A stretch of DNA of 64,000 nt, from contig OZ014416.1 in NCBI GenBank assembly GCA_963965975.1, positions 7,564,001-7,628,000 on the forward strand, given 5' to 3'. The stretch's first letter is position 1, and each line of letters opens with the position of its first letter. Made by a program: the position numbers and the translations under genes. Below, piece by piece: positions 5,956 through 58,317 of this stretch. The notes beneath the pieces were generated by a model. The model was not told the origin of the DNA and ran no database searches. It was given only the letters and a program-made list of their open reading frames with translations. The DNA is from Xestospongia bergquistia (lineage: Eukaryota > Porifera > Demospongiae > Haplosclerida > Petrosiidae).

Positions 5956-6014
5956 ACATTGATATCTAATGTTCTATTAGAGATCAAGTTATTAGTACCA
6001 ACCCTCTCCTGGTA

Positions 6015-20545: not shown

Positions 20546-20972
20546 CACGTATTACATTATATTACAAAATTAGCATTTTTATAACTAATTAATGGTGTTA
20601 TAATTGAGTAATCTATTGTACTGCAGGTTTAGCTCCGCCTACTTAATCTACAGTCTTCTACAATTTTTTGGTACTTTTTACATTTGGCTATATTTCCTTA
20701 GTACAGCTGGTTAATGAATATACTTACATGTTATAAAGTTTAGACCTTTAGTTTCTTATATTATGGTTGTTTTTGTTAATTATATTATTATTAAAATACA
20801 TAACAAATTAATCCTCTATTATTATTATATTAATAACATAAAATTTGAAGTATTCCACAATTACTTAACTACAATATTTCATTAAAACAATATACAACAT
20901 CATTCAGTAATTGTCTGATAATATTCTATAACACATTTACTAACAGCAGTGAGTAGTTATCTAATGTAGTGT
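20546..20972 (-). pseudogene. 3' flank of gene 1 and remnant of a phospholipase 3' end
   Basis: No gene remains. The sequence matches the 3' flank of gene 2 (40757-41160). From about 20925 it matches the region just past the phospholipase polyadenylation site at 42700-42747 (ataacacatttactaacagc, tatctaatgtagtgtc). At 20973 the match stops abruptly and the copia fossil begins, so the phospholipase copy once present here is gone. Confidence 0.6.
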
Positions 20973-23183
20973 CAAACACCCTCAGATGACTTAGGTCTGG
21001 TCTCCTTTGGTACCATTTTTCATAAGGTGATACCCTTTCTTTAAATGCCCTGGTGGGAACTCTGTTTCTAATGTAAGCTGCTGTAGCCACAGCTTCACCA
21101 CAATAGCTATCAGATAACCTTGCAAATCTAATCATGGTTCTTGCTGACTCCATCAAAGTGCGATTTAGTCTTTCTGCTACTCCATTCTGTGCAGAGGAAT
21201 ATGGGACAGTGAGCTCATGTCTGATACAAAAGCCTTTAGATTTAAGAAATTCTTCAAATTCTTTAGAAACATACTCCCTTCCATTGTCTGTACGAAGTGT
21301 ACTGATACTCAATCCACTGTCATTCATAGCAAGAGGTTCAAAATCTTTAAACTTATATAAAATTTTGGATTTGTGTCTCATAAAATAGACTTGACAACAT
21401 CTCGAATAGTCATCAATGAACGACAAGAAATATCTTTTTTGTCCTAATGACTCAGTGGGCATTGGTCCACACATGTCACTGTGAACGCATTGTAACTTTC
21501 TGGTGGAGCGAATTCCTCCAACACGCTCAAACGGTTTTCTGTGCAGTTTGCCTACAATGCATATGATAGCTCATCATTCTTCAAAATGGTCATTCCTCTC
21601 ACGAGCTCTTTAGAAGCTACTTCTCTCATTTGCTGTTTCCCTAAATGACAAAGTCTTCTATGCCATAAATCGGCTGAGTTACCCTTTTCAAATGCTGATG
21701 AGGCACACTGTTGTACCTGCACCACGGGTTTACAGTTTAGCTTGTATAACTTATTGTCAACCAACGACCCCATGCCAATTAACTTCCCTTTTCTATTCTT
21801 AATAAAGCAATTTAGGTCTGTGAATCTAACAGTATTGCCCTTCGATACTGCTGCTCTCACTGAAAACAAATTACTTGTAAGTTTAGGGACATACAACACA
21901 TGTCTCATGACACAATTTTTCTGTTTGCTAACCTTCAATGTCATATTAACTTGAATATCTCCTGTACCAAGAGCTTCTACGTGACGTCCATCACCAAGGC
22001 TCACTTTCTCTGGAACTTCAAACTTGCAATACTGATACAACATTTCCTTTGAATGAGTCATGTGACTAGTGGCACCAGAGTCTCGGTCACTGACGCATCA
22101 GCCAAGACAGTAAATACTCCCTCTGACTCCTGTGACATCTCTTTAGCAGGTTTTGCATTGTGTCTACCAGTCAGTTTAGGATGTGTTCTTGTGGTTTCTT
22201 GGGACAGTCCCATTGAAGATGTCCTGTTTGTCCACACGTAAAGCACTTCAGCTTCCATTGGCGACGTTGCCTGTTAGGCTGTTACTACCTATCTCATAAT
22301 GGTAGAGTGCTGTACCAGAGTCACCTGGCCTTTCCCTACCATATTCCCTGTTCGGCTTCTTTTCTTCGTGGATCAACGATTGCTGAGTATGGCTCAAAGT
22401 GACTGTGTCTCGAGCCTCTAGAGCTGTAACTAACGTTTGAAAACTTGCAGGCAAACTACCAAGGAGCGTTACCACCTGGTCTTCCTCTGCAATAGGTGCT
22501 GCGAGGGCGGAGAGCTTATCAGTCAATTCCTTCATCCTTTTCATGTGAGCTTCGACGGAGGTACCTTCTTTCATCTCTAAAGGAAAATATTGTTTCTTCA
22601 GTAGGAGTTTGTTAACCAGTGTATGTCTCTCAAAATGGTTACACAAAGCATCCCATGCTGGATTCGATCTATCATATGAAGTGATAAGGTAAAGTTGAGA
22701 CGGGCTGATAGCAAGTACAAATGTTGAGAATGATTTCTGCGCCCTTTTGTTCTATTCAGCCTCTTCTTGAGAGCTGTCGCTCCATGCCTGAGTACCTCTG
22801 TTTCGTCTACTAGGCCCCACAGACCATTAGCCAGCAAGAGATGTTTCATTTGGAATTTCCAAACGAACCAATTGTTTGCATCTAGTCTGTCAATAGAACA
22901 TTTTGTTTGTCCAATTGTTGCTTCAGCCATAACACCGTTGATCTGGACTCATAAACTGTTAGCAGAGTTTAAGCAACGAATTGATTATGAGAGAGTATAA
23001 TATAACAACAATAAATATAAACATAAATAGCAAGTCAGCAAGAGAGAGATTGATCAATAGACATATATATAACAATACAAAAAGCATTCCTTTTATATAG
23101 CATCATTTACAGGAAGTATTACATAACTATGTTTACATAAGTGGTTAACACATTCATACTTATTAAATCACTATTCTCCAACA
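20973..23183 (-). mobile_element. Ty1/copia-type LTR element, broken fossil
   Basis: A minus-strand LTR retrotransposon of the copia family. Recognisable parts, in element order, are an LTR (22957-23183), a copia-type gag region (about 22250-22930), a GAG-pre-integrase region (about 21550-22060) and part of an integrase core (about 20940-21474). It is broken, with at least a few disruptions, and is not a complete element. Its codon and base composition is clearly richer in GC than the surroundings. The parts are still easy to recognise, so it is probably not very old, but with a single LTR no age can be taken from LTR divergence. Confidence 0.85.
22957..23183 (-). repeat. Long terminal repeat of the copia fossil
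   Basis: On the minus strand the segment begins TGTTGGAGAATAG and ends GCTAACA, the TG...CA ends expected of an LTR. The gag region follows shortly after. It is 227 bp long, within the usual copia range. Only one LTR was found. Confidence 0.7.
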
Positions 23184-27200: not shown

Positions 27201-30200
27201 AGTGAAAGAGTCTTTAAAGAAGAATGCTAATGTGAATGTTAAAGATCAATATTTTGTAAGTTATATCTTATTATAATAAATGATTGTTTCTAGTAAAGGA
27301 TAACTCATTAATTTAACAATTATAAGTTTATTTAAAAAACAATGTAATATTTTTGAGAAGTCAGATATACAAGATTTAATACTTTGAATAATTTTTTCGT
27401 CATATTGTTGTATTGCTATAATAGACAAGGAATTAGAATAATTCTGATATTGACAAAGTCACTGTTTCATCTGTGTACACATATATATTTTTAAAATGTT
27501 ACTAACTCTATAGTATGATGTTCAACATTGCTGTGATATTTTCACAATATACTGTAACTGATTACCAGACTTAGTTAAATTCTATTACTGTAGTATTTTA
27601 AAAATTATAGTAGTCATATTTTCATTCACATTCTTTGTTGTTTTATTATAAGAGTCAGAATACAGCTTTACATTTAGCCTCACGTAATGGTCACAGTGAG
27701 ATAGTCCAATTTCTGCTACAGTCAAATGCAGATCCTAATATTTATAACAAGGTCAGTATGTATTGTGTATAATTTATATTTCATTTATTATCTCTACTAC
27801 ATGTACATATATGTAGTACTACCTGTATAGTAGGACAGGATATAGATCAAAGCCAATGTAATGTAATTAATTTTCAATAAAGTATGGATAGGACAAAGTA
27901 GCTCTCATTTGTTGTTTGATATATAACAATTACTAATATAACTGGAAAATGTAATAAACCTAATATGTAAAATAATATATAAAATATTAATATGTTCTTA
28001 CTTGAAATAAAAATGATTAGTTCTAAGATTATTTTGGACCATGTGTGTATATATATTACTATATATGTCCACTTTAACAATTTTATCTGTTATTATTATT
28101 AAACAATTTATTTCATTTTATAGTGGGGACAGAGTCCACTTCATTTAGCACACTGGTATAAACATGATAACATTGTTAAAATCTTATGTTCTTTTGGAGC
28201 AAGAGATATGGACCAAGTTAGAAATGTAAGTGATAAATATAATAATATATTTACTGTATATGATGACATGGACATAGTGATCTTACATTTTATGATATAT
28301 TATAAACATGACCTATTTATATGTGGGTACATGTCACAGTTATAATATATTATTTATTTTAATAGGATGACTTACTTTTGACTTCAGCTGAAAATGATGA
28401 TATAGAAAATGTAACTCAAGCAATTACATCAGGTGCTAATGTCAATGTTCATCATGGTCATGATGATAAGGTTAATACACTAATTAAATAATAATAAATT
28501 ATTGTTGTTTGTTAGTGTTTACTTTTTAAAGTAATATTTTTATAACAAAGGAGATCATTTACAGCATTTAAAAGATTTAGCTCCACCCACTGTTGTAGAC
28601 ATTGTTTTCATTGTTTCATCTAGAAGGCAGTTTAATATCTCTTTTCTTCAAGAAACTTAAATAAATTATAAATTACTAAATATATCTGCAGTAGTTGTAG
28701 TTATTATTTTTATCACTAGCATACTTAACATACTAGATAGTTATGTTTTAGACTGTGTTTGTATACAATGTCAATGTCTATTTTTATACATTATTTTATA
28801 GATATATTTGAATATTGAAAGTGGTGAATGAAATTTAATTGCACAAACAAATGAATTTAATTTACTCTTTCTATCAACACAATTATTCAACCTGAGCATG
28901 TCTACTTGAAGAACAAGTGTTAAGTAATTTAACCTAAAGACAGAAAATGTTTCTTTAAATGTAGCCTCTTGAACTATTAATTATAAGACTTCTCTATTAT
29001 TCTACGATAACTACTTGAAAGTACCAGCTTTCAATAATAAAGAAAACAACTGCAATACCAATACATCCAAAAACATCTTAAGACAATTTTTATAATGTTT
29101 AATTTTAATATATGGTCCATTTTATTATTGGTATATATTCTATAATTAATGCTATTATAATCAACAATAAATACTTGTGTTCTTCCTCTAGTATCAGCAA
29201 ACATGTCTACATTTAGCATCAAAAGGAGGTTACTGTGATATCGTACAGCTACTGTTAAACTCCAAAGCAGACCCCAATCTTTGTGACAGGGTCAGTGTAT
29301 ATTGTTGGTAAAGATTACTATATGTTTGTAGATTTAAATCAGTATTTAATAGATATAGAATGTTATGGGTGTGGCTGTTAGAAATTTCTACATCGACTTG
29401 TTCAAATTTTTATTAGTAAAGGATTAACAAAGATAGTCAGTGTCAGGTATTAGTAGGTGTGGCCTGTTATAATAGCAGTACATATCAATAGATTTCTTAG
29501 TAACTTCATATATTCTGAATAGATTACCAGCTTCCGGTGGAAGTACATTAAAATATGGACAAAATGATAAATTATATTACATGAAATAATGATTCAATTC
29601 TAATTGACTATGTCCTATATCAGTGACTGTTACTAATAGATCTGTTTACACTCAATAACACTATGACAGAAATCTTCTGAGTGGTTCTGGTAGTATCTCC
29701 GTGCATCTGAAAATTTCTTGATCTGTTGACATTGATACGTTTCTTTTCCTTCTTCAACTTTGATCTTCTTCAAAGTTGCTGCATAAGTTGGCCATTGGTC
29801 TAGATTCTTAGAGCTAAGCTTATCTATCTCCTTTATAGTCCTTAATAAACTGTTTAGGGCTAATAAGATGTCAACATCATCACTTTGCATTTCTTTAGAG
29901 AATATTGAGCATGGAGTAAGAAGATCAATGAACAATGCACAACCTAGAAGGTATTTTCCTTCTGTCCATTTTGTGTAGTAACCTTTCATTTTTGCACAAT
30001 CAGTGCTTTAAACATTGGAATCTATGGACAGAGCACCTAAGTGATTTGTGTAAGCCCTTATGACTAATCCACCTAGCTTTGATATGATCTTGATACTTCT
30101 TACATACTAAACAACTGATCTTCTTGACAATTCAACTTCGGGTTCGCACTCGAGCCAGGAAACTGTTTGTATCTCCTTGTCCAACTCTTGCTGCCACTTC

Positions 30201-33200
30201 ACAAATGTGTCAAAAGTTACCTTTCTTCACTTCACAGAGGAAGGAATAGCTAAGGAGTCGCTTCTTTTCATTTTTATTAGGCAGCAATCACTCGAGGCAA
30301 AACTCTCTGCTCAATTAATAATTGGGTGTGGTACCCAATAGTAATGGGTGTGGTTTCACGTATCTGGACCAAAGCAAGAAATGAGTGGAAAAGGGCCGGT
30401 TTTTGCCATACCTTGTTCTGCTATGATCTTGGTGACCATGCTTATTTGATGAATAATTATAGTTATCACGTGATCAATAACTTGCACATGTAAGTGATTT
30501 GGTCAAGGAGTTTTCTCGAGTGACCTATCCACTTGCATATTTTGGTTTAGTGACAAGTATAGTAAGCGTTACAAAATCTAAGTCTATAAACATAGAGTTT
30601 AGAAAAAGAACAAAGACTCATTGAAGTGCTACTTGACTTTTAATGTCACACTCATTAGTGGTTGTAATAGTCTGTAGTAGATGAGAGTGTCAAATCTTTT
30701 GCACTATTAACATTTCTATGACCAGTAATAGCTATGACATTCTGCTCTTCAATAGCTTAAAAAATCTGATGGGACATGTGCAATACAAGAAATGATTAAT
30801 AAAACCTTATGTTCAACTTGTACATGCAGTTATGTCATAAATAAAGTACTTTGAGTAACAGAACTGAGAATTGCATTCAAACTGTTGTTCCACAATTAAT
30901 AAGCATTTTATAGGCTTCCTACCACCTTAATGACTTTATAACAACCACATGTAGACAATATCACAATGTAAAAATTATTTAGTAACTAAAGTCATCAGCA
31001 AAAATATACAAGGAGGTCAGGTCAGTATTACGTTATATAATATAGCAGACCATAGATACTAAGCTTGGTTACTAATCTAAAAGAGTGAATTATCTGTCAT
31101 TACAAGCAAATTAACTGACTACTTGACCTTTAATATAGTCAGTGTTAAGGTAAAAATATCTGAATTTTTTTTCAGCTTTTTTTGATGCAATCATGTGAAG
31201 ATACTTGTTCTAATAATTGATCATGCTTTTAAAAAATTTTTAAACCCTAGTACTTTGCAGAAATGTAGTTTGATTCCTTAATATCTGCAATGCTTTGGAG
31301 ACGTCAAATAATATTATTAAAGAACCTAGAGAGCTGAAACTTTTGAAAATTAAAGATGAAGTCAATTACTACAATTATTCGGATGGATTTATTTCTACAA
31401 TAATATTTGACATTTTTACAAAGCTATAAACCTTCCCTACTTTAATCACTATTATTATTATATGTTATACAAATCGTACAAAGAAATGCATCCGTAAAAG
31501 TACTGAAAATTGATCATTTTCGTTCTTGAACTTGTCAGCAGGTTGTTACATTATCCATAGAATCAAAAATCACAACAACAGTATCTAACAGTGCAAAAGT
31601 CGCCATCTTGATAATGAATAATCGATTTTCATTAATAAAGGCAATGAATACACTTAGTGTCAGGTTATTGATAAGTGACTTTCTTGGGGTTAAAATAGTT
31701 GAATATATTATTACTATTATTATTATTATTGTTATTAATGTTATTAAAGCATGGTCTGCTTTGAGATGAAGGCACATAAAACTACGAACAATAATAATAA
31801 TAACTTAACTTTTCCTCTTTTGTTTTCTAGGATGGTAAAACACCAGCACATTATGCAGCAGAGAAGGGTTATGTTGATGTTCTAAAGTTATTAATTACAG
31901 TGGGACAAGCTGACATAAATGTTACAGATAATGTAAGTCATATTATAGTTACTTATAAATTATTCCCTTTGAAGTATGACATTTAATATTCTCTTCAATA
32001 TTGATATCAACCTCTTTCATATCCAGACTATCCAATATTTTGATAACTTGTTTTTGGCAAAAGATGTTCCAAGAACAATAGTCCAAAATCAAATTTGATT
32101 TCTGCCTACAATATGTCAAACATAGCCTATTGTCATTATATCAAAAATTACAATATTTATTAATGATCAATTAATTAATAGTCATGAATAATTAATAAAC
32201 AGAATGTTTTTTCCTGTAACATGTCCAATGTAGCCCCACATTACTCATCTAAAATATTTATATAGACATTTACACCATCAACACTTATTTGACCAGTAAC
32301 AGCCAAAAAAGAGTCAGGTAACAAATTATTTGCACAGGAAATAATTTGTAAAGCCTTCCATTACAATCTTAATGCTAGCATAGAGTCTCTGAACTGTCTT
32401 ACCTCGTGTATTATGTCCCATAGGACTGGATTGATACCAGCAACCTGTAGTCCGTCTATTGATGTTGCTATGTATACTAGGTATACAGGTAGAGCTGTAT
32501 GTATGCTTCGACACATCACTGTAATAAATTGTTTTCATTTCACCAGAAAACTGGAATTGCCTTTAAGAATGAGGTCAACCATTTGCATATAGCAGTAGAT
32601 CATACATTAAATAATTAAAAGTGAATTCTTTATATATTTCACAAATAACAAACTACATCACTGCTATTTGGACATGTTAGATACATGTGGCAAATTAAAA
32701 CAATTACATTTCTAATGGTCTTTTAAACATAACACTTGAATCAAACAATAGGTATATATAGGAAACAAGCACAGACTAATATCTGAATGTATTGGTTTTA
32801 AATTCTAGGATTTTGTCCTTGTTTCTATGTATATAACTACACTGATATATCTATCAATGCGTATTATGCTTTTCTTTGCTTTAGCATCCAATATAACACA
32901 TTATTGATTTTATAATATCAATATTTTAAGGGAAATTAACATTCAAATTTTTTATTCTTTACAGAATGGGGACTCTCTATTACATCTTGCTTGTGCTAAT
33001 GGTAAATTAGACGTGATTTCGTATCTACTTCACACTGGAAAAGTCGATCCACTTGCTCGTAACAATCGTCAGAATACACCACTAGATGAAGTCCGACTGC
33101 ATGATCGAAACAGACTTGAAATTTTGAAGATGTTTGAGCCATTTGAGAAAAGTCGTCAAGACTATCCAATTGATTCATATAGAAAAGTGTTTTTTTGTGG

Positions 33201-36200
33201 AAACAAGACAGCTGGAAAGAGTTCATTAACTCAATGCATTAAATATCGTGCTGATAAACCTCCTGATTATCACTACAACCCTTCTCAATGCATTGGAGGT
33301 GTGCAATTGGAAACTGCTGGTATTAACTATCATAATGTTCGTAGTCATGAAGTTGGCAATATTATTCTTTATGATTTTGCTGGTCATCAAGAATATTATA
33401 GTAGTCATGCAGCTGTACTGGAGAATCTTATGTTGAGAACTCCTGCAATTTTTACAATAGTGATAGACTCAACTAGAGGTTTGGACTACTTCAAGAAGCA
33501 ATTGTATTACTGGTTTACCTTTATTGAAAATGTTTGTGCCAATTTAACCAAACCTTCTCAAGTGATTGTTGTTGGAAGCTATGCTGATCGATTTACCGAT
33601 AGTTATGATGAATTGAAGTTGCATGTCAATTATGTTGTTAAGGATGCTGTTCGTAAACAAGAGTATAGAGGTTTTGTTTCCATGGAGTGTCATCGCCCAG
33701 GTGGAAAAGGATTCCCTGAATATATTGTTCACCTTCGTGAAAGTTGTAAGGCTGTTGTTGATAAGTCTGATAGCATTAGTTATTATTGCCATGTCCATTA
33801 TGCTTACCTCCAAAAACTACAGAAAGTAGCTATTAGCATTAATGAGCTAATTGAAAGCCTAAAAGCTCTTCAGGATCCGTCCCTTCCTTCAGATGAAACA
33901 GTTTTGGTTAATTACTTGTCAATTCTCAGTGACAAAGGTCTTGCTCTGTTTCTGAGAAATGAAATACTCTCTAATAGTTGGATTGTAGTCAACAAATCAG
34001 AGCTCCTTGCTAAAATCAATGGTGTTCTTTTTAATCAGACCATCAAGCGTCTTCCTATGCCAACTTCTAGCAACACTGGTATTGTCCATGTTTCTGTTTT
34101 ACAAGAGCTCTTTCCAACATATGATACAAGCATGCTTATTCATTTTTTGATAAGTATGGAATTTTGTCATGTTATTGATTCAGACACACTGAATGCTATT
34201 ACTACCAACCTGTCTTTATCAGATACATTTTCTGGTTTAGAAGTCATATTCTTTCCTGCCCTTGTCACCACTGAGCCTCCTTCAGATTTGAATGAGCATT
34301 TCAACAATGGATTTGGTTGGTGTTTGTATTGCCCTAATCCTTTTCAATTTCTCTCTATTCGCTTCCTTCACGTTCTTTTGCTTCGATTAGCATATCTATA
34401 TTCTCTTCCTCGTCGCCGTAAAGCTGGTGAATTAGACAAAAAGTCTCCTATGCAGCAGTTGAATCGTCGTTGTACAGTCTGGAAGAATGGTATTTATTGG
34501 AAAGATATCAATGATGTAGTAGTAGAAGTGACAGATAATAATAGATGTGTCACTGTATTTGTTTCCAATGACAATGGAGTAGAAAGTCAAAAAATGTGTT
34601 GCTCTATTATAAAACTGGTTCTTTCCCTTCAAAAGCAGTTTTGTCCATGTGAAATTGAAGAATACATCATCCCTTCTGGATCTTTAGCTGGCATTCGTAG
34701 TAAGGCCATTTCTAAACGAATACTCTACAGAGTAAATGATGTAGCTCGAGGAATGCTAGTTAACAAGGAAATATTTGACCAGAATGGAGTTCAAGGCAAT
34801 GTCAAACACGTTTGTCCACATGAGCCATATATCTCCCTTGCACCAGCAGTCATCCATGCCTTATTTTCCAATAATAAAGCTAATCAAGTTATTTCAGAGA
34901 GATTTCTTCAACACATACAAGAATTTGCTCCCAGTGTAATGTCATCTTATAATACATCCAAAGGTAGTACCTATTCTGATGTTGCCAGTCATCTCAATGA
35001 CTATAGCTTTTTCTCTGGACAAAATCCATTGGTAAGTTACAGTACTACATTAAACCTAATATATGTCTTTATTATATGATATATGAGACTATATATCTTT
35101 ATATGTGAACATAATTAATTTCTTTAATTAATATATTATGCTTTTCCTGTAGTCTATTCATTTCAAATATGTATTTAATTAAATTTTAGGACCTCATGAC
35201 TCAATCTTTAACACGTGATGAAATACTAAGTATCTCAAAAGATCGCCTTCGATCTACAAATATTTCAACACTAAAAGGTTTGTTTTTCATGTTTATTGGT
35301 ATATCTAAGAGCATTATATGGACTTTCTTCTATTCTTATGTTTTTCTCACACATATCTGAGTGCATATGTATATCTAAGGACATTGTGTAGTAAATGATA
35401 GCTTTCTTATAATAGTTAGTGTGTATACATGTACATTGTTGTCACTGATGACTTTGCGCTTCTGATTTATATTTATTAGAAGAACATCCTGAGAAATGTG
35501 ACCTCCTAAAACTAATGTCAGGTATTGCTTTTCAATGGTATATTATTGGTGAATGTCTTGGAATTAAATACACACATCTGGCCTCTTTGCAAAGCAAGAC
35601 TTCAAGAGACATTGACAAACTTGCCGAAGTACTCCAATTTTGGATGGATACAAAGCCTAAACCTGTCACTTGGAACACAATTTTACAGACAATAGAAAGT
35701 CCACCTATAGGAAATAAAGTTACTGTCATGGAGATAGAAGAGTTCTTAAAATGTGAGTGCTTATATAATCCTAGTAAATTAGGTAATTGTACTTTTGTTA
35801 ATTCTTTTTGCTTAAAAGCCATAATCACGTTTTCCTTGAGGAAAATAACTTAGTGTGGTAGAAAAGAAATTTCTTAATAATGATACTTTACTTATCATTA
35901 CCTTTGTAAGGTATATGGTATTATTTATGTAGCCCAAACAAATGGAAGTAGTGACATTTGTGATGATGATCTATTGGAGTTATTGACCACTACTGGTAAG
36001 ATATTGTTAAAATGTTCTGGTTCATTATAGATTAATTACACTTAACTAAAATATCTTTATTTGATAAATACATATCCTCAAATATACATTATATACTTTT
36101 ATACAAACAATTGTCTACAACACTTTAAGTTTAGAGTTAGTTATTAATGTATCGTATTATCCACTCTAGTGTCAACATAATAATGGTACATATATTTATA

Positions 36201-41179: not shown

Positions 41180-42691
41180 CCGTGGCGTTCAAAAGAGTTC
41201 GGCCACCCACGCGGAAGTTGCATTATTGAGTTTATTTAATTAACCACAACTACACGTGTACTGTTTCTGTGCTATTTTTGAAGAGAAAGGCTAACACTGA
41301 GTGGTATGGAGTCAGTTACAGTTACATAAGAAGTTGGAGAAACGTTAGGGTAAGTAATATCTGTGTTTTAAACTAGGGATGATGTTTATTATCGTGTTTT
41401 TTGACAAAAACGAATAAAATAATATCTTTTGTAAGTAAAGATATCTAGTACTTTGTGTGCCCACCTCTTGCTTTGATAACAGCTTCAATTCTTCGTGGCA
41501 TTGACGAGACCAGGTTTCGTATTATCTCTGATGGTATATTCTCCCAAAGATCATTTAGCGTGTCCCATAATTGAGAGAAAGTTGTTGGCAATTTTTTTAG
41601 TTTCCTCTCTAAATAGTCCTATAAGTTCTCAATTGGGTTTAAGTCTGGAGATTGTGCTGGCCATGTAGTACAATTAACATCATTTTCATTCATCCAATCT
41701 GTTATTACATGAGCCTTGTGGCAAGATTCATTGTCATGCATGAAGATGTAGTCCAAACCTCTTATTGACCAGGCTGCATGATAGAATCATTGCGTTTTCT
41801 AGTATTTCTAAATACTGAAATCTATCCATCTTGTCTTTGACTTGTACTAATATGCCCTTTTCATTGCCACAGATACATCCCCACACCATCACACTGCCAC
41901 CACCATGCTTTACTGTACCCTGTATACAATCCTTATTAAATTCTTCTGATAGTCTACATCATATGTACATTCGACCATCACTATGGAAGAGATTAAACTT
42001 GGACTCATGAGACCATACAACTTTACTCCACATATCCTCTGTCCAGTCCCTGTGTTCCTTTATCCATTGGAGACGTTGTTGTTTGTGTCTCAGCAGTAAC
42101 AATGGTTTCCTTCTCGATATTCTACCATTTAATCTGGCATCTATCAGTCTTCTCTTCACTGTACTTGAGGAAGCCATGACATTATCTTCCTCCTTCCATA
42201 TATTAATTTTTTCAGAAGAGGTGCTGTTAGTTTACGATCTTGAATTGACTTTAATACGAGACTTCTATCTTCTCGTGTTGAAGATAATTTGACGTCCAAC
42301 TCGTGGTTCATCAGTTACTGATTTATTTTTCTTGTATTTTTGGATAAGATTATTTATTGTACTCTGGTATTTTTTAATTGTTTCGATATAACCCTAGATG
42401 ACAGTTTAAGTTGGTGGAAAGCTATAATTTGACCTCTCTGGAACTCACTTGTTGGTTTTCCTCTGGGCATGTTGTGTTCAGTTTTTTCTAATTGTTTCCA
42501 GGCACCTCTTGTAAGTCAAGGACAAGTTTATGACTGCTGCTCTAATTGCTCCTGTGTAAACAGCTTTCGATAGACGTAACTGAGCAGCTGTTAGATGTCT
42601 ATCAAGTACTGCGCATTGTCTAAGAAAATAACCTTAAGTATTATTTTTAATGAGAAACACGTGGGTGGCCGAACTCTTTTGAGCGCCACTG
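41180..42691 (-). mobile_element. Tc1/mariner transposon, degenerate, with TA target duplication
   Basis: Inverted ends ccgtggcgttcaaaagagtt and its partner (right end ...aactcttttgagcgccactg) match over about 32 bp. TA flanks both sides (41178-41179 and 42692-42693). The 1512-bp length is usual for Tc1. A transposase reads on the minus strand from an ATG at 42470 to about 41450, roughly 340 codons. The helix-turn-helix start is clear (GKPTSEFQRGQIIAFHQLKL). In the catalytic region the first Asp is lost (WSHESKFNLF where Tc1 usually has SDES), and several in-frame stops and shifts follow. It is inactive. Confidence 0.9.
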
Positions 42692-46294: not shown

Positions 46295-47341
46295 ATTGCT
46301 GAGATATCTGTTTGAAAAATAACAAAATACTACTAAAAATTGACATAAAGTCATTAGTAGTCAAGTCTAGTATAGGTATCAGACTAGTATTACTCAGATT
46401 TTGAGTGTGGGGACACTTAAAGATGAGGTAATGTTACTGTCTTTAAATACAGAGATGAGCCCATCTCACTGTAAAAGTAGAGTTGAAATGTCTGCTTGCT
46501 GGACTAATCCACTTCTGAGTAAGAGCCCTGAGGTAGCCCCTGTAGTTGGAGATGATTTGGGCCCCACCCATAATCGTCAACTGACGCCCTAGTGATAGAA
46601 GGCGCGACATACCAGTGACTTAGTTAGTAAGTAATATAAAGTACAAGTTAATTAATAATATTGTATGTAGATAATATGAGTCATTGGTCAAGTTAAAAGT
46701 TTGAATGTTATAATGTTTACTTGTTGACTACATACACAAGATATGTTACTTCCTATAAACATCATCATAGTCGAGATTATAGAGAGGAAGTACGTCTCTT
46801 TACATAACTTCGTGTATTTTTAGTTAAATCTGATATCAAGACGGTCTTTTCAATAGTTACAATGATAGTAACTAATATACTGATTAGTTCAGTTGAAATA
46901 GTATTTTCATTTCAAATATTAGACAACAAAATACAAAATATTACATTTTAATAGTTTTATATATATTGAGGTAGACTGGTTTGGTTTTGTGGTAACTTAG
47001 TATTAGATTTACATCATATTGATGAAACTGTAGTAACCAAGATCTTCATTGAAATGACACAATCGTTTTTATATAGTGACATATATAATACATTATAGTA
47101 TAACTGATATATGTACATTATAGTATAACTGATATATGTACATTATAGTATAACTGATATATGTACATTATAGTATAACTGATATATGTACATTATAATA
47201 TAACTGATATATGTACATTATAGTATTACTGATATATGTACATTATAGTATTACTGATATATGTACATTGATATGTCATATTCTATTAGAAAACTTGATC
47301 AACTTAACAGTACCAGCCAAAGGGTTCCAGGCCTCCTGACA
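46295..47341. promoter_or_regulatory. Divergent promoter region between the phospholipase gene and gene 3
   Basis: About 1 kb between two start codons facing away from each other. Its left half matches 5040-5400 before gene 1, with a GC-richer block around 46555-46620 (gggccccacccataatcgtc, ggcgcgacatacc). Its right half matches 23340-24200 before gene 2 and ends with the 25-bp array. Conservation between copies of otherwise decayed DNA supports a promoter role. Exact start sites cannot be read. Confidence 0.5.
47091..47265 (+). repeat. 25-bp tandem repeat upstream of gene 3, seven copies
   Basis: Seven copies of the same unit as at 5831-5955, ending about 75 bp before the start codon. The last two copies share a variant (tagtattact for tagtataact) and the fifth has tataatataa, so the array grew by copying neighbouring units. 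Confidence 0.9.
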
Positions 47342-50300
47342 ATGGTAGCTCAACTATCAGAAGAACAGCAACGGAGTATTGTAAGTTTATTTGTAACAAA
47401 TACAGTATACTACATGTGTTAATGTACTATCAATACATTACATATTATTGTTAAGTATGGCTTGGTTTATGTGTAGAGAAAGGCATGATGGCAAAATGGT
47501 TATCACACTCAATCTATTACGTATATTGTCAAATAACTGTTAATGTTCCATCATAAATTTATTTCAGTATCAATTATTGCAGTTATTGATTATTTTACAT
47601 GTAATAACTTCCTTGATGGTGTTTAAAGTATTACTAAAGTGGAGAATTATAAACTACCTAAACGGTTACATTCTACTTTGTACATACATACATAGAGAAG
47701 ATTGCTTGGGTCTCTATGTGTTATGTATATAATAGTTGACCTGTCCTATAGTTTTATTAGTCTCATATAATACATGTAGTTGTGTATGATTTACTATTTT
47801 TAAATGTAATGGCTTGTTTTATTATTATATAGGACAATGAACTTTGGGAATATGCTGAAGTTGGAAATTTAGAGAAAGTCAAACAAGCTCTTCAGAAAGG
47901 AGCAAACTTCAAATGTCATTTTAAAGTAAGATCCTATTAATTTCCCTTTAACCTACTATTATTACTTGTCTCTACTAACTTGAGCAATTACTTTAAAATA
48001 TATAGATTTAATGAGTATTAATTTATTTTACCACACCTAAATTTTAATTAAAACTTAAACATTTACACAATTTATTAATTATTATTCTATTTATTAAAGT
48101 TATTAAATTACTATATCAACAATTAATAACATACATGACCTTTACATGTAGTATTTTAATATTGTCTTATAATTTAATTGAATGTAATCCATTATATTGT
48201 GTGATAATAATGTCTTAATTAATGATACATGTCAATGTAAAGCTTGTATTGTGTATATACAATATATGTAATTGGATTTTATTTCATATATTAAAATGTC
48301 TTTGTTTGTTATATAGATTCGATATAGTGAAGGTCGTTATGTAACGCGAACAACACCTCATACTGTAGCTTATATCAATGGTCATAACACAATAGTACAA
48401 CTCTTAGAAAATGCAGGTGCTACTCCTGATTATGTAAGTATATACATGTATGTAGTTGAGGTAGTATAACTCAAGTGTTTGATTGTTATATTAATATTAT
48501 GTACATGTACATACTTATATTAAAATGTATCCTATTTATTGTCCAAGTCCTTATACACATAACAATACATTTAATGGATAATTATTATGATATTTACTAA
48601 TATAATTGTTGTGTATCTATGTTCTGTTTTTCTCCACGCTACCTTTCTTTTAATATTGGTTTATATAACTAGTAACTATCATTAAATCATTAGTTTAAAA
48701 CATGTTATATAACACTATAAAATACAACAATGTTACCAATTGACTTTATAACATTTTCAAAGAAATGCTAAAAGATTGACTAAACTATTGTATCACACAG
48801 CAGTCATATCCAGATTTATTTCCTGACAAGTGTTAAAATTAAAAACAATTATATCAGTAATGCTACTAGCTTTGATGTTATATTGGAGTGAACAGTAAGC
48901 ATACTTTGTTACCTTATCTTATACCTAAATAGAAGACTAAATTGAGCCACATCAATATTAGTTAATTAAATGAACACATAATGCTAAGGACTAGATAATT
49001 AATCCTGAAGGCTCAGGCTGTCATAGACTGATGTGCTAGGAAGTGTTTGTATATCCATCATATTTAGAAATGCAATTAATTGCTTTTCAGGATGCATAAC
49101 CACAAGAATGTTTATATCATAAATAATAAAATAAATAGACTTTATGTAATGATTAATACCCACTCAAACTGATAATAAAATGTCTTAATAAATTGATTTT
49201 AGTATTTGATATTAGCCAGGCTTTATATTTAGTCTTTAGTTTTTGTGTCATTTGGTTTGTAAGACTGTCTTGAGAAGAAGATTAAACTGGACTGAATGTA
49301 TTTCTAAACGATCACTAAATTGTCTTTGACTAGCTGCCCATCTTAACCCTATGATAGAACTACAAATATTTTGTCATAAAGGAGATCTTTAACTATATAT
49401 TTGTGAATGATAGTGTTAATGTCTTGAAATCACTTTAGATAAATAAAGTATACTATCATATGTGGGATATAGTTATACAACATTGCATATGATCATGTAC
49501 TTTATATATAGTTAGTTAGTTCTGGTTAATGAAATCTGTGCCACATGGGATTTATGTACATGTGTATTCCTAGTATATATTGTAGTATTTATTATAATGT
49601 ACATTATCTGTATTTACTTATTGTGATTTCTTAGGATGAAATTATGTTAGCCGCTGCTGTAAGAGGACTAGTAGATATAGTGAAAGAAGCTTTAAAGAAA
49701 AATGCTAATGTGAATGCTAAAGAACAAGATTTTGTAAGTTATATCTTATTATATAATAAATGAGTCTTTTCTAGTAAAGGATAACTTATTAATTTGACAA
49801 TTATAAGTTTATTTAAAAAGCAATATAATATTTTCATGAGAAGTCAGCTATATAACAACACTTAGTGCTTTGAAAAGAAAAATTTTTGATTGTCACAAAA
49901 TGCTCAAAATCTACTATGCAGTATAGAGTTTTAATGTATGTTATGAACTTACTATATTAGATACTTAAGTAAACAATCTGGTTGTATTGCTGTAATAGAC
50001 AAAGAATTAAACTAAACATGTCATGAACAAAGTCATTGTTTCACACACAAAAAAATATGTGTACGCATATATTTTTAAGTGTTACTAATTATGATGTTCA
50101 ACATATCTCCACAATGTTGTAACTGATTACCAGACTTAGTTATGTTCTCTTACTGTAGTATTTTCATTAATACTCTTTGCTGTTTTTTTATTATTAGGAT
50201 GATGATACAGCTTTGCATATAGCCTCAGGTAATGGTCACACTGAGACAGTCCAATTTCTCTTACAATCAAAAGTAGATCCTAATATTTATAACAAGGTCA

Positions 50301-53300
50301 GTGTGTATTGTGTATAGTTTGTATTTCATTTGTTGTCTCTACTACATGTACATATATGTAGTACTACCTGTATAGTAGGACAGGATATAGATCAAAGCCA
50401 ATGTAATGAGTACAATTAAGTTAATGTTTTCACTCCATGCAAGAAATTTTTCAATGAAATTTATGTGGGTGGTATAAAGTATCTCTCATTTGTTGTTTGT
50501 ATATAACTAATTGTTAGTAAGACTGGACCATATGTATATGTATATTTTTTATATCTGTCTACTTTAATAATTTTAATCTATTATTATTATTATTAAACAA
50601 CTTATTTCACTTATAGTGGGGACATAGTCCACTTCATATAGCATACTGGTATGGTCATGATAACATTGTTAAGCTGTTATGTTCTTTTGGAGGAGATATG
50701 GACCAAGTTAGAAATGTAAGTGATAAATATAATAATATATTTACTGTATATGATGATATGGACATAGTGATCTTACATGTTATGATATATTATAAACATG
50801 ACCTAATTATATGTGGGTACATGTCACAGTTATAATATATTATTTATTTTAACAGGATGACTTACTTTTGACTTCAGCTGAAAATGGTAATATAGAAAAT
50901 GTAACTCAAGCACTTACATCAGGTGCTAATGTTAATGTTCATCATCCTAAGAAGGTTAATACACTAATTAAATAATAATAAATTAATGTTGTTTGTTATT
51001 GTTTACTTTTTAATGATATATGTTCTATAACAAAGGAGATCAGTTACAAATAAATTAGGCCCCACCCACTCTTGTAGACATTGTTTTATTTAGGAGGCAG
51101 TTTAATCTCTCTTTTCTTATTTACATAAGAATTCTCTATCATTTTACTCTGTTGACATTGTCATACAATGCTAATGAACAAGGAATTGTTTGACCCAAAC
51201 ATTTGATTAATACAACCATGCTGACAAACTTCCTTCTAGCCTTGGGTAATTTTTTACGACCTTTTGCCAAATTCAGCGAAAGACTATTATTTTATATGTA
51301 AACTAGTTGTATTTATTAATATAATCTTGTCTTTTGGTAATAATATTCATGGTCAGTGAATGTCAACCCACAAATGACATGAATATTTCTATTATTAAAA
51401 TTTATTGACCCAACCTTTGAAGTCTACTTAGTTTGTAGACTAACAATATAACAGATAATCCTTCATAGAGTCTTGTTATTCACAGAAGTATCACTATGTA
51501 TGAATCAAGTACAAAGTTGATATTATCTGGTGTTACTAAGAGTTGTGGTTAGAATCATGATGTTATTAATAATACTAATAGTCATAATTCAAATGTAAAG
51601 TATTACTCATCCCTTGTTTCAGAGCAGGTATTATAATTGTTATACTAATACTTGTATTATTATAATACTGTAGTCCTAGTTGTTTCCTATCACTAAATTT
51701 TGTAAATTAATAAATATATATTTGTGATAGTTGTAGTTATTGTTTTTCACTAGCTCACATTACACGACAACCACTAGTGTCCTCTATTATTTCATGATAA
51801 CTACTTCAAATGTCTTATTTTCAATAATAGAGAAAGCAGCAGAAATATTAATATAACCAAAAGTATCTTAGAACTATTTTTACAACTTTAAATTTTAATA
51901 TGTAGTCCATTTTATCATACGTATATAATATAATTAAATATTTATAATCGACAATAAATACTTGTGTACTTCTGGTAGGATCAGAAAACAGCTCTACATC
52001 TGGCGTCAAAAGGAGGTTACTGTGATATCGTACAGCTGTTGTTAAACTCCAATGCAAATCCTAATATTTGTGGCTGGGTCAGTTGATATAGTTTGTAAAG
52101 ATTACTACATGTTACCAGACTTAAATCATTATTTAATAGATATGGAATGTTATGGGTGTGTCTTTTGCAAATTTCTACATTGATTTGTTGTTCAAATGTT
52201 TGTTTGTAAGGATTAACAAACATAGTCAGTGTCAGTGGGTGTGGTGTGTTATACTACTAGTACATATAGTGAAAAGCATCCTAGTATTCACATAGGTCCC
52301 ACTAGTATTGTGTTCAATTTTTGTCACATCATTGTAATGATTGTGAGAGTTGTATCATCAACATTATACTATACTTTTATATTGTTACTAGACTTGTACC
52401 TAAAACCGAAACCAAAAATGCTTGAGCATGCAAAGAAGAGAGAATAGTGTGCCATTTTTCTCTATTACTCTTTCAAATATCCAATTTTTAATAATAGAGA
52501 AAACAACTGTAATGCTAATACAATGAAAGGCATCTTAGCACAACTTATATCATTTTAGTAATATGTGGTCCATTTTATCATAGGTATATAATATAATTTT
52601 TTTCTATAAATTTTTATGCTATTATAATCAACAATAAATACTTATGTACATTCTCTAGTATCAGCAAACATCTCTACAATTAGCATCAGAAGGAGGTTAC
52701 TGTAATATTGTACAACTACTGTTAAACTCCAATGCAGATCCTAATATTTTTAATGAAGTCAGTGTATGGTGTGTCATTTTTGTGACACTGTTCAAATGAT
52801 TATAGTAGTTGTATCATTATCATTATACTATACTTTTATACTGTTACTAGACTTGTACCCTACAAAAACATAAACCCTAAACACTTTAGCGTAGACAAGT
52901 AGTGAGCCGTTCTTCTCTATTATCCTTTGATAAGTTTTTCAAATGTCCGATTTTCAATAATAGGGAAAACAACTACAATACTAATATAATCAAAAGTATC
53001 TTAGGAAAAATTTTCATAATTTTAATCTTGCTTAAGTTTTAATATGTGGTCCATTTTATCATAGGTATGTATTATAGTCTTCTACAAATTTTTTATGCTA
53101 TTATAATCAACAATAAATGCTTGTGTACTTCCTCTAGGTTCGGGAAACAGCTTTACATGTAGCATCAGAAGGAGGTTACTGTGATATCGTACAGCTACTG
53201 TTAAACTCCAATGCAGATCCCAATATTTGTGACAGGGTCAGTATATATTGTTTGTAGAGATTACTACATGTACAATTTAATAGATATAGAGTATTATAGG

Positions 53301-56300
53301 TGTGGCTGTTAGAAATTTCTTCATTGATTTGTTGTTCAAATTTTTATTAGTAAAGAATTAACAAAGATAGCTAGTGTCAGGTATCAGTAAGTGTGGCCTG
53401 TTATAATAGTAGTACATATATTTGAAAGCATCTTGGTATTCACGGAGGTATGGTATGCCATTTGTGACAATCTGTTCTAATGATTGTGGGAGTTATATCA
53501 TCAGGATTATACTATACTTTTATACTATTACTAGATTTACACCCAAAACCTAAACCCTAAACACTTTAGTGTAGGAAGAACAGCCAGTAGTGAGCCATTC
53601 TTCTCTATTATTCTGTCTTTCAAATCTCTAATTTTTAATAATAGGGAAAACAACTGCAATACTAATATAATCAAAAGTATCTTAGAATAATCGTTACAGT
53701 TTTAATCTTGTTTAAATTTTAATATGTGGTCCATTTTATCATAGGTATATAATATAATTTTCTATAATTTTTATGCTATTATAATCAACAATAAATATTG
53801 TCCACTCTCTCTCTCTAGTATCAGCAAACAGCTTTATATGTAGCATCAGAAAGAGGTTACTGTGATATCGTACAGCTACTGTTAAACTCCAATGCAGATC
53901 CCAATATTTTTAATGAGGTCAGTGTATATTGTTTGTAGAGATTACTGCATGTTACTAGATTTAAATCAATATTTAATTGATATAGAATGTTATGGGTGTG
54001 GCTAGTAGAAGTTTCTGCATTGATTTGTTTTTGAATTAATGGATTAACAAACATAGTCAGTGTCAGGTATCAGTAGGTGTGGCCTGTTATGATATAGTAC
54101 ATATAGTTGGAAACATGTTGGTATTCACAGAAGTCCCATTAATATGGTATGCTATTTGCATCAAACCTTTGTGATGATTATAGAAGTTGTATCATCAGCA
54201 TTATACTATACAATAGGTTTGTCTTCTTATAATATTAGCACATATATAGTTTAAATGATGTTGGTATTCACAGAAGTACCATTAATATGGTGTGCCATTT
54301 GTGTGTGACACTGTTCACTGTTATAACAGTAGTACATATAGTTAAAGGCAACCTAGTATTCACATAGGTCTCACTAGTATGGTGTGCCATTTGTGTCAAA
54401 ATTTGTTGTAATGATTACGGGAGTTGTATCATCAGCATTATTCTATACTTTATATTGTTACTAGACTTGTACCTAAAACCTAAACTCAACACTTGAGTGT
54501 AGGAAGAAGACCCAGTAGGGAGCCATTCTTCTCTATTATTCTATGATAACTACTTTAAATCTCCAAAGAGAAAAGCAATTATAATACTAACATATTTAAA
54601 AGCGTCTTAGCACAATTTTTATAATTTTTATTCTGTTTAAATTTTAATATATGGTCCATTTTACTATTGGTATATAGTATAATATTCTTTAAAATTATAA
54701 TCAACAATAAATATTTGTGTACTTCCTCTAGAATCACCAAACAGCTCTACATGTAGCATCAAAAGGTGGTTACTGTGATATTGTACAACTACTGTTAAAC
54801 TCCAATGTAGATCCTAATATTTGTGATAAGGTCAGTGTATATTGTTTGTAGAGATTACTACATGCTACTAGATTTATATCAGTATTTAATAAATGCACAC
54901 TTTATGGGTGTGGCTGTTCAATATTTCAACATTGACTTGTTCAATTTTTTGTTAGTAAAAGGATCATTAAACACAGTCAGTGTCAGGTATGAGTAGGTGT
55001 GACCTGTTATAACAGTAGTTGAAAGCATCTTGGTATTCACAGAGGTCCCACTAGTGTAATGTACTGTTTGTGTCACACTGTTCCAATGATTATGGGAGTT
55101 GTATTGTCAGCATTGTCCTATATATTTTATATTGTTACTAGACTTGTAATCAAAACATAAACCCTAGTCACTTGAGCGTAGAAAGAACAGCCATTAGTGA
55201 GCCATTTTTATCCATTATTCTATGATAACTACTATAAATCACCAGTTTTCAATAATAGAGAAAACGCCTGCAATACCAATATAACTGAAAGAGTCTTTGG
55301 ATATTTTTTATGATTTTAATCTTCTTTAAATTTCAATATGTGGTACATTTTAGGATAGGTATTTATTATAATTTTCTATAAGTTTTTATTTTTTTATAAT
55401 CAACAATATATACTTGTGTACTTCCTCTAGGATCACAAAACAGCACTACACGTAGCGTCAGAAAGAGGTTACTGTGATATGGTAAAGCTACTGTTAAACT
55501 CCAATGCAAATCCTAATATTTGTGATAGCTGGGTCAGTGTATATTATTTTTAGAGATTACTACATATTACTACATTTAAATTAATATGTAATAGATATGG
55601 AATGTTATAGGTGTGGCTGTTAGAAATTTCTACATTGATTTGTTGTTCAAATTTTTGTTAGTAAAGGACTAAGAAACATAGTCTCACAGTCAGGTATTAG
55701 TAGGTGTGGCCTGTTATAATAGTAGTTGAAAGCATGCTGGTATTCATAGAGGTATCACTAGTATGTTGTGCCATATGTGTCAAAGTGTTCTGATGATTGT
55801 GGGAATTGTATGATCAGCATTATACTATACTTTTATACTGTTACTACTCTTACGCCCAAAACCTAAACCTTAAATACTAGTGTATAGACAGAACAGCTAG
55901 TAGACAGAACAGTCATTACATGTACTTCATAGTGACAATAGGATGGATGAAGCATGTCTTTAACCCTTAAATTTGATGCCATACTTGAGCTGTCCTTAAC
56001 ACATCTAAATTATCTTTCGTTATAATTAAAACCCTCCCCCTTAAACATTAAACCTTAACATTAATGGCACACTGGATATATATTACAATTGTTTGCCAAA
56101 AGTTTGTGATTAATGAAGAATAATTTCTTTGCCCATAGAAAAGCTAGCACTATACTGCATGTTAATGGGTGTGGCTTATAAAATTCACTTCATATGGAGT
56201 ACATTAGATACACACATAGACTGTTCTGTTATTAAAGAAAAGTAATGTTAAGATAATTAATTAGGATAGAGAAAAATGTTTATTAGCTATTATTCAAAAT

Positions 56301-58317
56301 AACTAAATCTAAAGTGTAGAACCTCATTGGTATGTGGTATAGTCATAATTATTAGTCAGATTTCATATAATAATACAATAACTATAGTTGGTGTAATTTT
56401 TTAATTGAATAAATTTTCCTCTTTTCTTTATAGAAACGAACACCAGCACATTTTGCAGCACAGAAGGGTCATGTTGATGTTCTAAAGTTATTAATTGAAG
56501 TGGGGCACGCTAATATAAATGCTACAGATGAAGTAAGTCATATTACAGTTACTTATGAATTATTTCATTTGGAGTATGACATTTAATTTGATTATCATGA
56601 ATAATTAATCAATTAATTAATAGTTAATCGCTTTGATATAATACTTGGGAATATTACAGTAGAGCTTCCTTCAAGTGAATCAATGTTTATTTTTAGTTTC
56701 TTGTTGTAGCTACTAGTGTCATTTATGAGGTAACAATTATTAATGAATGTGATATGTTTTGCTCATAGAAATAACAATTGGTCTTATCAATGATGACACT
56801 GCATATAGAGAGTATAGAGAGTGTTAGTGGAAATGCTGAGTCAAGATATTCTTGTCTGATTTTTCTTGTGTTCTGATTTATAGTGATTTTTAAAAGTCTT
56901 GATGTGAATGTACAAAAATGGTGAAGTTAAAGAGACCTTAGACAATACTTAAATCTGTTTGTTACAATTTACACTTCTAATGTCATTGTGAAATAGTTAC
57001 AAATAAACACTTTAATTTGCAGAGATAGTAATATTCAATATTCCTTCACATAAATACTGAACCAGAATGTGATAATTCATCATGCCAAATACATCAAGAT
57101 GTCAAAATTAATGTAGTTTAAAAAATAGCAATGCTATTAAAATTCTTTTATGCATCATTTTTATAAAGCAATGTTTATTTGTTGCATATTTAGTAAATGC
57201 AATAATAAATTTTAGACTTTTGTTATTTCTCCTGATACAAACTACAATGACAAGCTATAACTATATATGATGTATTAGTAGTCTTCATTAACTAGTTAAA
57301 GAGGTAGTCTTCGTAGTGATCTCTAACATATGTACATACTTTTTGTCTTAGGACTTGTCATGTCAGTATTCCTTGTCATTGTACAATGTACAAGACTTTC
57401 TTTTGAAAGATTCAGACTGTATATCAAAGTATTCTCAAAATTTATTATAAAGTTTATCTGTTTAAACAACTTAATCTATTTATTTGTCATCACATTACAC
57501 AAGAAATATATATTATATTAGTTATAACAATACAGTTGTTATTTATATTTTCACTATTTTAATTTTAGGGTGACAGCAATCTACTACATTTAGCCTGTGC
57601 AAGTGGCAGTGAAGAAACCATACACTATCTTTTACATAATGTCCAGCTAAATCCAGATTATCTAGTAGCTCTAAACAGTAATCAACAAATGCCATTGGAT
57701 TGTATTCCAGCATCTAACGCTAATAGATTTCAATTACTGAAGTTATTTCAACCATTCAAACAATGTCACAGAGACTACCTCACAGAATCATATGCTCTCT
57801 GTGGAAAGACAGAAACTGGAAAAAGTTCATTAGCTGAAGGTATCTTTTATCGTGCTAACAAGTCGTCTTTTCATGACTGTGATCCAATCAATATAGGTAT
57901 CAATGAAAGTGTTAGTGAGTCTATTACAGAGGACAATAACACTGTCAGTGGTAAGTTTATAATTTAGTATAGAAAGATAATGTATATTATTAATTACATC
58001 ATACAGGTAAATTTAATGCATCAAAAATCTTTCGAGTTCATTCTGCTGATCTTTGTGATATAATTGTGGATGCTAATCCTCATCGTATTGTTAACAGCCT
58101 TGTCTCTGCTGATCTGTTGCCACGAGATATTGCAGAAGATGTTAAGAGTATAACTGATGTATATGCTAAGGTTGATAAAATTGTGGGAAAGCTACAGAGG
58201 CAAATAAATGATGATGAACATCCAATTGAGTTACTAAAGAGGATTTGTGATTTTCTTTTAGAACAAAGTGACAAGACTTTAAAGGACATTGGTACTAAAA
58301 TGATGAGTCAGCTATAG
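47342..58317 (+). CDS. Gene 3: long ankyrin array with truncated Roc P-loop and CARD-like end (about 677 aa, 16 exons)
   Basis: Exons: 47342-47380, 47833-47925, 48317-48433, 49635-49733, 50198-50296, 50617-50715, 50856-50954, 51979-52077, 52659-52757, 53138-53236, 53819-53917, 54732-54830, 55431-55532, 56434-56532, 57569-57950, 58007-58317. They total 2034 nt in one frame with GT-AG borders. The start is MVAQLSEEQQRSI. Thirteen ankyrin-type exons (residues 14-447) lead to a short exon with an ankyrin repeat, P-loop GKTETGKSS at 526 and then linker sequence, followed by a diverged CARD-like domain. The rest of Roc, COR and Death are absent. The frame is intact, so it may work as an ankyrin-CARD adaptor or decoy. 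That role is inference. Confidence 0.8.
47833..50954 (+). CDS. Gene 3 first ankyrin exons (six)
   Basis: Six phase-0 exons, partners of the first six ankyrin exons of gene 2: DNELWEYAEVGNLEKVKQAL (47833), TTPHTVAYINGHNTIVQLL (48317), DEIMLAAAVRGLVDIVKEAL (49635), DDDTALHIASGNGHTETVQF (50198), WGHSPLHIAYWYGHDNIVKL (50617), DDLLLTSAENGNIENVTQAL (50856). Intron sequence between them also matches gene 2 over long stretches, for example 50716-50855 against 28226-28365. Confidence 0.85.
51979..55532 (+). repeat. Six-fold tandem array of one ankyrin exon with its introns
   Basis: Exons at 51979, 52659, 53138, 53819, 54732 and 55431 (spacing 680, 479, 681, 913 and 699 bp) encode near-identical repeats built on ALHVASEGGYCDIVQLLLNS and NADPNI. 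Each is followed by related intron text: a GGTCAGT donor, in most copies gtgtggctgttagaaatttc and gtgtggcctgttataatag, then gtggtccattttat and tataatcaacaataaat before the next acceptor. Exon and intron copies are about equally alike, which indicates recent expansion or ongoing exchange. Gene 2 has one such unit (29192) and gene 1 none. Confidence 0.9.
56434..56532 (+). CDS. Gene 3 last separate ankyrin exon
   Basis: A 33-codon phase-0 exon reading RTPAHFAAQKGHVDVLKLLI. It pairs with 1406-1507 in the broken copy and with the gene 1 and 2 exons of the TPAH..AA type. The intron before it matches 1260-1400. Confidence 0.8.
57569..57950 (+). CDS. Gene 3 fusion exon: ankyrin, P-loop and linker joined by deletion
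   Basis: The first part (to about 57890) matches 2839-3160 of the broken copy through P-loop GKTETGKSS and FYRANKSSFHDCDP. The sequence then runs, without a splice, through caatatag, the end of an intron, into a linker exon reading INESVSESITEDNNTVSG (compare 16252-16305 and 37077-37130). So one genomic deletion joined the GTPase exon to a downstream intron-exon border and left the frame open. Three codons just before the P-loop (KLF in the broken copy) are also missing. The exon enters in phase 0 and leaves in phase 1. Confidence 0.85.
58007..58317 (+). CDS. Gene 3 terminal CARD-like exon
   Basis: A 311-nt exon in phase 1 with stop at 58315-58317. It reads FNASKIFRVHSADLCDIIVD, later KVDKIVGKLQRQI and LKRICDFLLEQSDKTLKDIG. 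It is clearly homologous to the other CARD-like exons but much more diverged than those are from each other, and seven codons shorter. No second, alternative CARD exon follows here. Confidence 0.7.

Follow-up and report, generated by a model that had tools for sequence, protein, structure and literature searches.

Has one gene of a tandem array in the sponge Xestospongia bergquistia lost the GTPase part from its middle in such a way that its two ends still form a single open frame, and, if so, is the shortened gene maintained or decaying? The gene in question, gene 3, lies in a stretch of 64,000 nucleotides (the window) on contig 6 of the assembly (146 Mb, 21 contigs). Truncated paralogues are nothing unusual in big tandem families; what makes gene 3 a modestly interesting test case is that its middle is lost and its frame is still intact. 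What is known of death-fold receptor families in early animals comes, to our knowledge, largely from domain counts. If it is expressed, gene 3 would offer a natural way to learn what the switch does and how a decoy can originate in one step.

The gene family in and around the window

The window contains a tandem gene array that is eukaryotic by its introns. The long members of this family share one order: ankyrin exons come first, then a long exon, a Death-like exon and short linkers, and the end is formed by one CARD-like terminal exon or two. In the long exon (approximately 700 aa), the final ankyrin piece and Roc precede a long region that occupies the position of COR. The landmarks of genes 1 and 2 in the window are as follows.

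12793-14934: long exon of gene 1
15299-15697: Death-like exon of gene 1 (Pfam score of 16.7 bits, below the cut-off)
19.7-20.5 kb: CARD-like tails of gene 1
32908-35079: long exon of gene 2
39.9-40.7 kb: CARD-like tails of gene 2

The next gene past the window (loci L070 plus L049) is the tandem neighbour of gene 3; its parts follow this order too, and its ankyrin exons are fewer in number. Against a Pfam cut-off of 27 bits, Roc scored 31.4 bits in gene 1 and 28.6 bits in gene 2, while the Roc of the neighbour (L049) remained under it at 20.0 bits. The long exons of the three paralogues scanned (genes 1 and 2 and the neighbour) gave zero Pfam matches to COR, and the region after Roc in L049 did not align with the COR-A exon of another locus, L069; we therefore name COR by position only. 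The Death-like exon of the neighbour had no Pfam match and is so called because it resembles the Death-like exons of L069 and gene 1 (34% and 33% identity, respectively), which are themselves weak Death matches (21.4 and 16.7 bits; cut-off 22.6).

At 2733-3976, the window also contains a copy from the gene 3 subfamily that is broken. Its first part (2733-3135) is 87% identical to gene 3, its ankyrin-Roc frame stops at 125 aa, and the later pieces lie in other frames.

Exon structure of gene 3

Gene 3 was predicted to have 16 exons with GT/AG borders, which together give 2,034 nt, 677 aa and zero internal stops.

47342..47380, plus strand: predicted exon 1, MVAQLSEEQQRSI, with the start codon at 47342 and a start context and donor as in gene 1 near 6015
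47833..48433, plus strand: ankyrin exons 2-3 (47833-47925, 48317-48433), with AG/GT borders and phase 0
49635..50954, plus strand: ankyrin exons 4-7 (49635-49733, 50198-50296, 50617-50715, 50856-50954)
51979..55532, plus strand: ankyrin exons 8-13 (51979-52077, 52659-52757, 53138-53236, 53819-53917, 54732-54830, 55431-55532), a tandemly amplified repeat unit
56434..56532, plus strand: ankyrin exon 14
57569..57950, plus strand: fused exon 15, with the last ankyrin part, a P-loop remnant, a former intron end and a linker
58007..58317, plus strand: terminal exon 16, with a six-helix CARD-like domain and the stop

The thirteen ankyrin exons (E2-E14) are all in phase 0, and Pfam recognised tandem ankyrin repeats in the 677-aa protein (Ank_2, E=5.3e-80). 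A first-pass annotation had read gene 3 as thirteen ankyrin exons linked to a CARD-like end, and this reading held, with E2-E14 in frame and the tail CARD-like by a fold search. Exons 2 and 3 are 93.5% and 89.7% identical to those of the tandem neighbour, which has no match of its own to exons 6-13. The donor of exon 7 is weak (gttaat), a feature common to gene 2. Exon 15 (382 nt) is entered in phase 0 and left in phase 1; the linker was described at first as open and followed by a good donor, and it is indeed in frame and free of stops, with gtaagt after 57950. The acceptor ag of the terminal exon lies at 58005-58006 and the stop at 58315-58317. Three alternative splice readings of gene 3 give proteins of 465-579 aa, all of them without the CARD tail: splicing to the retained AG at 57895-57896 (483 aa), skipping of the fused exon (465 aa) and retention of the last intron (579 aa).

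Two repeats accompany these exons. Between 51782 and 55834 a unit of 0.5-0.9 kb occurs six times with one ankyrin exon per unit, and gene 2 has a single copy of it, at about 28990-29485. A 25-bp tandem repeat at 5780-6031 and 47039-47340 reaches the start exons of genes 1 and 3, and the two tracts are 96% alike over 150 bp.

A deletion junction within the fused exon

The exon at 57569-57950 had been proposed to begin as an ankyrin-Roc exon. In agreement with this, each of the 20 paralogue loci fetched has an ankyrin-Roc exon to which 57569-57886 aligned with 75-89% identity, part of the preceding intron included, and the left side of the junction ends with GATCCA at 57886. The part from 57888 onward aligned for most of its extent in 12 of these 20 loci (82-89% identity). 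In 11 of the 12, this right part lies approximately 2.7-3.4 kb past the left one; in L063 the distance is approximately 6.5 kb. The equivalents of the two sides in L049 are positions 1214 and 4248, and thus about 3.03 kb is missing in gene 3. In L049 the corresponding stretch contains the remainder of the long exon together with the Death-like exon and the linkers upstream. The parts of the fused exon around the junction are listed below.

57797..57886, plus strand: Roc remnant of 30 codons with its P-loop, LCGKTETGKSSL
57887..57887, plus strand: deletion junction, one base that the alignment assigns to neither side, without microhomology
57888..57896, plus strand: 3' end of the former paralogue intron (tcaatatag), TCAATATAG
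57897..57950, plus strand: last linker exon of the family, in its original frame

The former intron end, together with position 57887 and the next bases, now forms the codons I-N-I-G. The exon was first described as passing directly through an intron end, caatatag, into a linker exon; this motif lies at 57889-57896, and several of the 12 loci carry the same CAATATAG before the same linker, while others have a variant such as GATATAG, which bears the description out. The P-loop, said to be kept, is present as the motif GKTETGKSS, but 9 nt have been lost just before it, so that the three residues found there in 20 of 20 fetched paralogues (K-L/I/V-F) are gone. The two ends meet at a single additional base and share no homology, a pattern like that of end joining. 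An in-frame join is by itself a one-in-three chance.

The claim that the rest of Roc, COR and Death were removed stood up as far as the losses are concerned, from the paralogue alignment and, for COR, by position. The intron that separates the fused exon from the CARD exon is 56 bp long and therefore leaves no room for COR-position or Death exons in gene 3. The genome was searched for Roc, CARD, COR-position and Death regions, and the best candidates were scored. With the COR-position region of the neighbour, genes 1 and 2 and the neighbour itself were found, and nothing in gene 3 was among the 135 matches listed. The Death search likewise gave no gene 3 match among the matches listed, but it says little on gene 3 because the Death-like exons of genes 1 and 2 were not among them either; the 56-bp intron is the better argument. 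For Roc, Pfam found no match in the fused exon or in the 677-aa protein, and thus a Roc G domain was not recognised in either. A structure prediction of the fused exon reached a pLDDT of 39.4 from 11 rows and carries no weight here.

Gene 3 is unusually compact among the Roc-CARD pairs measured. We measured the distance from Roc exon to CARD exon for 74 of the 150 listed Roc rows and 78 of the 150 listed CARD rows; a CARD-like exon lay within 12 kb of 56 of the 74 Roc exons and none lay within this distance of the other 18. In these 56 pairs, gene 3 is an outlier at 437 bp, the next distance is 2,310 bp, and 42 pairs fall between 3 and 5 kb. Of the 149 other matches listed in the Roc search, none extended across the full linker part of the fused exon; the one that reached furthest ended at query residue 116 of 127.

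Origin of the junction

In a tandem family as repetitive as this one, and with closest paralogues that differ between the left and right sides, an assembly in which two paralogues were wrongly joined has to be considered. Misjoins usually use long repeats, and the two sides meet here without shared sequence, which argues against repeat-driven misassembly. As in the paralogues, the sequence runs on through the preceding intron, the last intron and the 3' flank. In addition, a 25-mer across the junction, with up to 3 mismatches allowed, was found at one site in 146 Mb, and its reversed control at none. We consider an artefact of this kind very improbable. The sequence comparisons indicate that gene 3 is very probably a real deletion allele of a member of the large tandem family, with the GTPase middle missing.

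Whether one gene or two gave rise to it is a separate matter, and here a single deletion within one gene is plausible but no more than that: trees do not resolve gene 3 and its identities are mosaic. A deletion between genes, which is compatible with the other readings, would have taken the left and right parts from two tandem genes with a loss of more than 3 kb. The nearest paralogues are L051 and L049 for the ankyrin part, L058 for the linker, and L058 and L050 for the CARD exon, as such an origin would lead one to expect; however, the nearest copy shifts by segment, within one side too, as gene conversion would give, and trees of both junction sides did not settle the placement of gene 3. 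We regard an origin from two genes as less likely than not.

Selective constraint on the open frame

Neutral rates were taken from one intron plus the 3' flank compared with the neighbour (936 sites, 82 substitutions and 13 indels, 3 of which keep the frame). At these rates, 3.3 breaking changes are expected in the gene 3 frame at 1% neutral divergence (P(0)=0.036) and 6.6 at 2% (P(0)=0.0013), figures that rest mainly on the indel rate, that is, on 10 frameshifting events in two alignments. Provided that the indel rates are right, the frame would probably not have survived about 1% of neutral drift. When only stops are counted, P(0) is 0.43 at 1%, 0.19 at 2% and 0.08 at about 3%.

Private changes were then compared between parts of the fused exon. 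The Roc remnant (30 codons) carries 7 private changes and the ankyrin part (76 codons) 5, against 38 and 130 in the corresponding parts of 22 other copies (Fisher p=0.011 in a small test chosen after inspection of the alignment); with nonsynonymous changes alone p=0.044, and 3 of the 7 remnant changes are synonymous. This set of 22 exons includes the broken copy in the window as well as L062 and L016, which are near-duplicates. The 7 changes in the remnant exceed those of any of the other copies (maximum 5), and the loss of 9 nt is additional. In the CARD exon, 4 nonsynonymous and 2 synonymous private changes were found, nothing unusual relative to the other copies (26 other exons, after L048 and L065, which have stops, exact duplicates and L029, which is gene 3 itself, were dropped). 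Relative to the neighbour, dN/dS was 0.083/0.177 for the ankyrin part and 0.080/0.274 for the CARD exon, pairwise values that include the time before the deletion. Together with the open frame, the faster change in the P-loop remnant than in the ankyrin part hints at a maintained ankyrin-CARD protein. If the remnant changes postdate the deletion, gene 3 had time to break and yet did not, but some of them may be older than the deletion.

The same locus can be read as a pseudogene in waiting, in which the receptor was destroyed and the frame is open by luck, with little time for further damage. The one-in-three odds of an in-frame join suit this reading, as do the broken family member at 2733-3976, the fast-changing remnant with its 9-nt loss, and the number of short frames in the family: frames below 480 aa were counted by eye in 14 of the 150 Roc exons listed, and these 14 include gene 3 and four C13 copies with equal scores. 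Stops alone, moreover, make an open frame unsurprising until neutral divergence reaches about 3% (P(0)=0.08). Against it stand the indels, with which about 1% neutral divergence probably breaks the frame, and the private changes in the 30-codon remnant, which lie above the maximum of 22 other copies. We give this reading a substantial chance, though one below even. Among the other Roc-CARD pairs, 50 of 55 have a Roc exon frame of at least 683 aa, and it is while these copies keep such a frame that gene 3 stands as one copy without the GTPase part.

The four C13 copies are a two-exon set, one per strand, that occurs on G000:C13 at about 3.41, 3.63, 3.82 and 4.03 Mb, at a spacing of about 190-220 kb and with equal or nearly equal scores. 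They may be recent segmental duplications or duplicated assembly.

The CARD-like tail

The terminal domain of gene 3 has 103 aa, and 24 copies of it align. Its predicted model has six helices (mean pLDDT 94.7). A Foldseek search of PDB with this model gave 88 matches at E values up to 10, none at 0.001 or better, and 35 of the best 50 of these 88 are CARDs or CARD-bearing proteins by title, among them RIP2, ARC, Apaf-1, NOD1, caspase-1 and NLRC4. The highest TM scores, 0.68 (query) and 0.74 (target), were with the Apaf-1 CARD, and the best E value was weak at 0.53. Thus the predicted model has a six-helix CARD fold. By sequence, there was no significant Pfam match to CARD in the tail, and a profile search of PDB sequences with the CARD alignment returned 17 matches, none of them a CARD. 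On the predicted structure, the label CARD-like is a fair one.

By sequence, the tail module appears in another architecture as well. At L069 (G000:C11:6441000-6448050), the one locus read of seven on C11, the same linker and CARD-like tail belong to a gene with caspase and COR-A matches and a near-cut-off Death match, and six further tail matches between 6.416 and 6.470 Mb of C11 were among those listed. The C11 genes were considered as natural ankyrin-CARD genes without Roc-COR, but L069, the one locus read, has the caspase, COR-A and Death matches instead.

Possible function and relation to known systems

The G motifs have their several roles in the G domain; G1 is the only one left in the gene 3 sequence, and the protein predicted from it cannot form a working G domain. 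We lean towards a reading in which gene 3 is a deletion allele whose 677-aa ankyrin-CARD protein is made, is under some constraint and acts as a GTP-independent competitor of its paralogues. Such a protein would engage the same ankyrin ligand and CARD partner as its paralogues, and would do so without GTP-dependent control. Taken separately, the functional step, from a protein that is made and constrained to one that binds ligand and CARD partner, more likely as a decoy, remains tentative, and we would put it at less than even.

A first-pass proposal had been a new decoy or a constitutive adaptor, and a competitor role seems the more likely of the two. As a constitutive adaptor, the protein would escape Roc control, and its ankyrin ligand or the stacking of its repeats would cluster the CARDs and signal constantly; both the ankyrin array and the CARD-like tail that this demands are kept. 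Dimerisation of Roco proteins is described as proceeding mainly, not solely, via Roc-COR, with COR prominent (PMC6337361), which would make clustering less likely if the lost region is COR. An always-on death-fold signal would presumably be selected against. With Roc-COR and the Death-like domain gone and ankyrin and CARD kept, a competitor fits better than an always-on adaptor, which we hold to be improbable. A more far-reaching version of the competitor reading is that one deletion by end joining made a receptor of the ankyrin-Death-CARD type, gated by its GTPase, into an ankyrin-CARD protein that is fixed, expressed and a dominant-negative regulator of its tandem paralogues, with the sensor array and tail kept and the switch lost; as a whole, this chain of steps is rather doubtful. 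As read from the sequence, the origin by deletion is plausible and the decoy function possible.

The long paralogues resemble DAPK1-type Roco proteins, with ankyrin repeats, Roc and a Death-like exon in the same order; DAPK1 itself is given as ankyrin - Roc - COR - Death (PMC12408332). The family differs in the absence of Pfam matches to COR and in the added linkers and CARD-like tail. Gene 3 differs further in that it is without most of Roc, the region after Roc and the Death-like exon, no COR follows directly after a Roc domain, and Pfam found no kinase match in the predicted 677-aa protein.

The human CARD-only proteins COP/CARD16, INCA and ICEBERG are the nearest working analogy to gene 3: they are copies of an immune gene beside the parent caspase-1 that kept the CARD, lost the enzymatic part and are described as non-enzymatic decoys (PMC3775265). 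Unlike these proteins, gene 3 does not encode a solitary CARD, as thirteen ankyrin exons precede the tail; it keeps the ankyrin array and loses the switch and the Death-like exon, and its inhibitory role would be a putative one.

Among sponges, the TRADD-N family of Amphimedon has undergone large expansions that mix Death-like domains with ankyrin repeats (PMC8195603). The likeness lies in large families with this mixture, and the difference is that the Amphimedon expansions concern TRADD-N proteins. A figure legend on sponge NLRs names COR among the domains (PMC12909245). The literature searched, at the level of abstracts and passages, gave no description of ankyrin-Roc-Death-CARD genes.

Mobile element remains in the array

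Just past the tail of gene 1, at 20926-22948 on the minus strand, the window contains retrotransposon remains in several frames with matches to integrase core, Pol beta-barrel and GAG-pre-integrase, which we take to be copia-like. Between genes 2 and 3, a fragment on the minus strand (41959-42231) has a match to a Tc-type transposase (PF01498).
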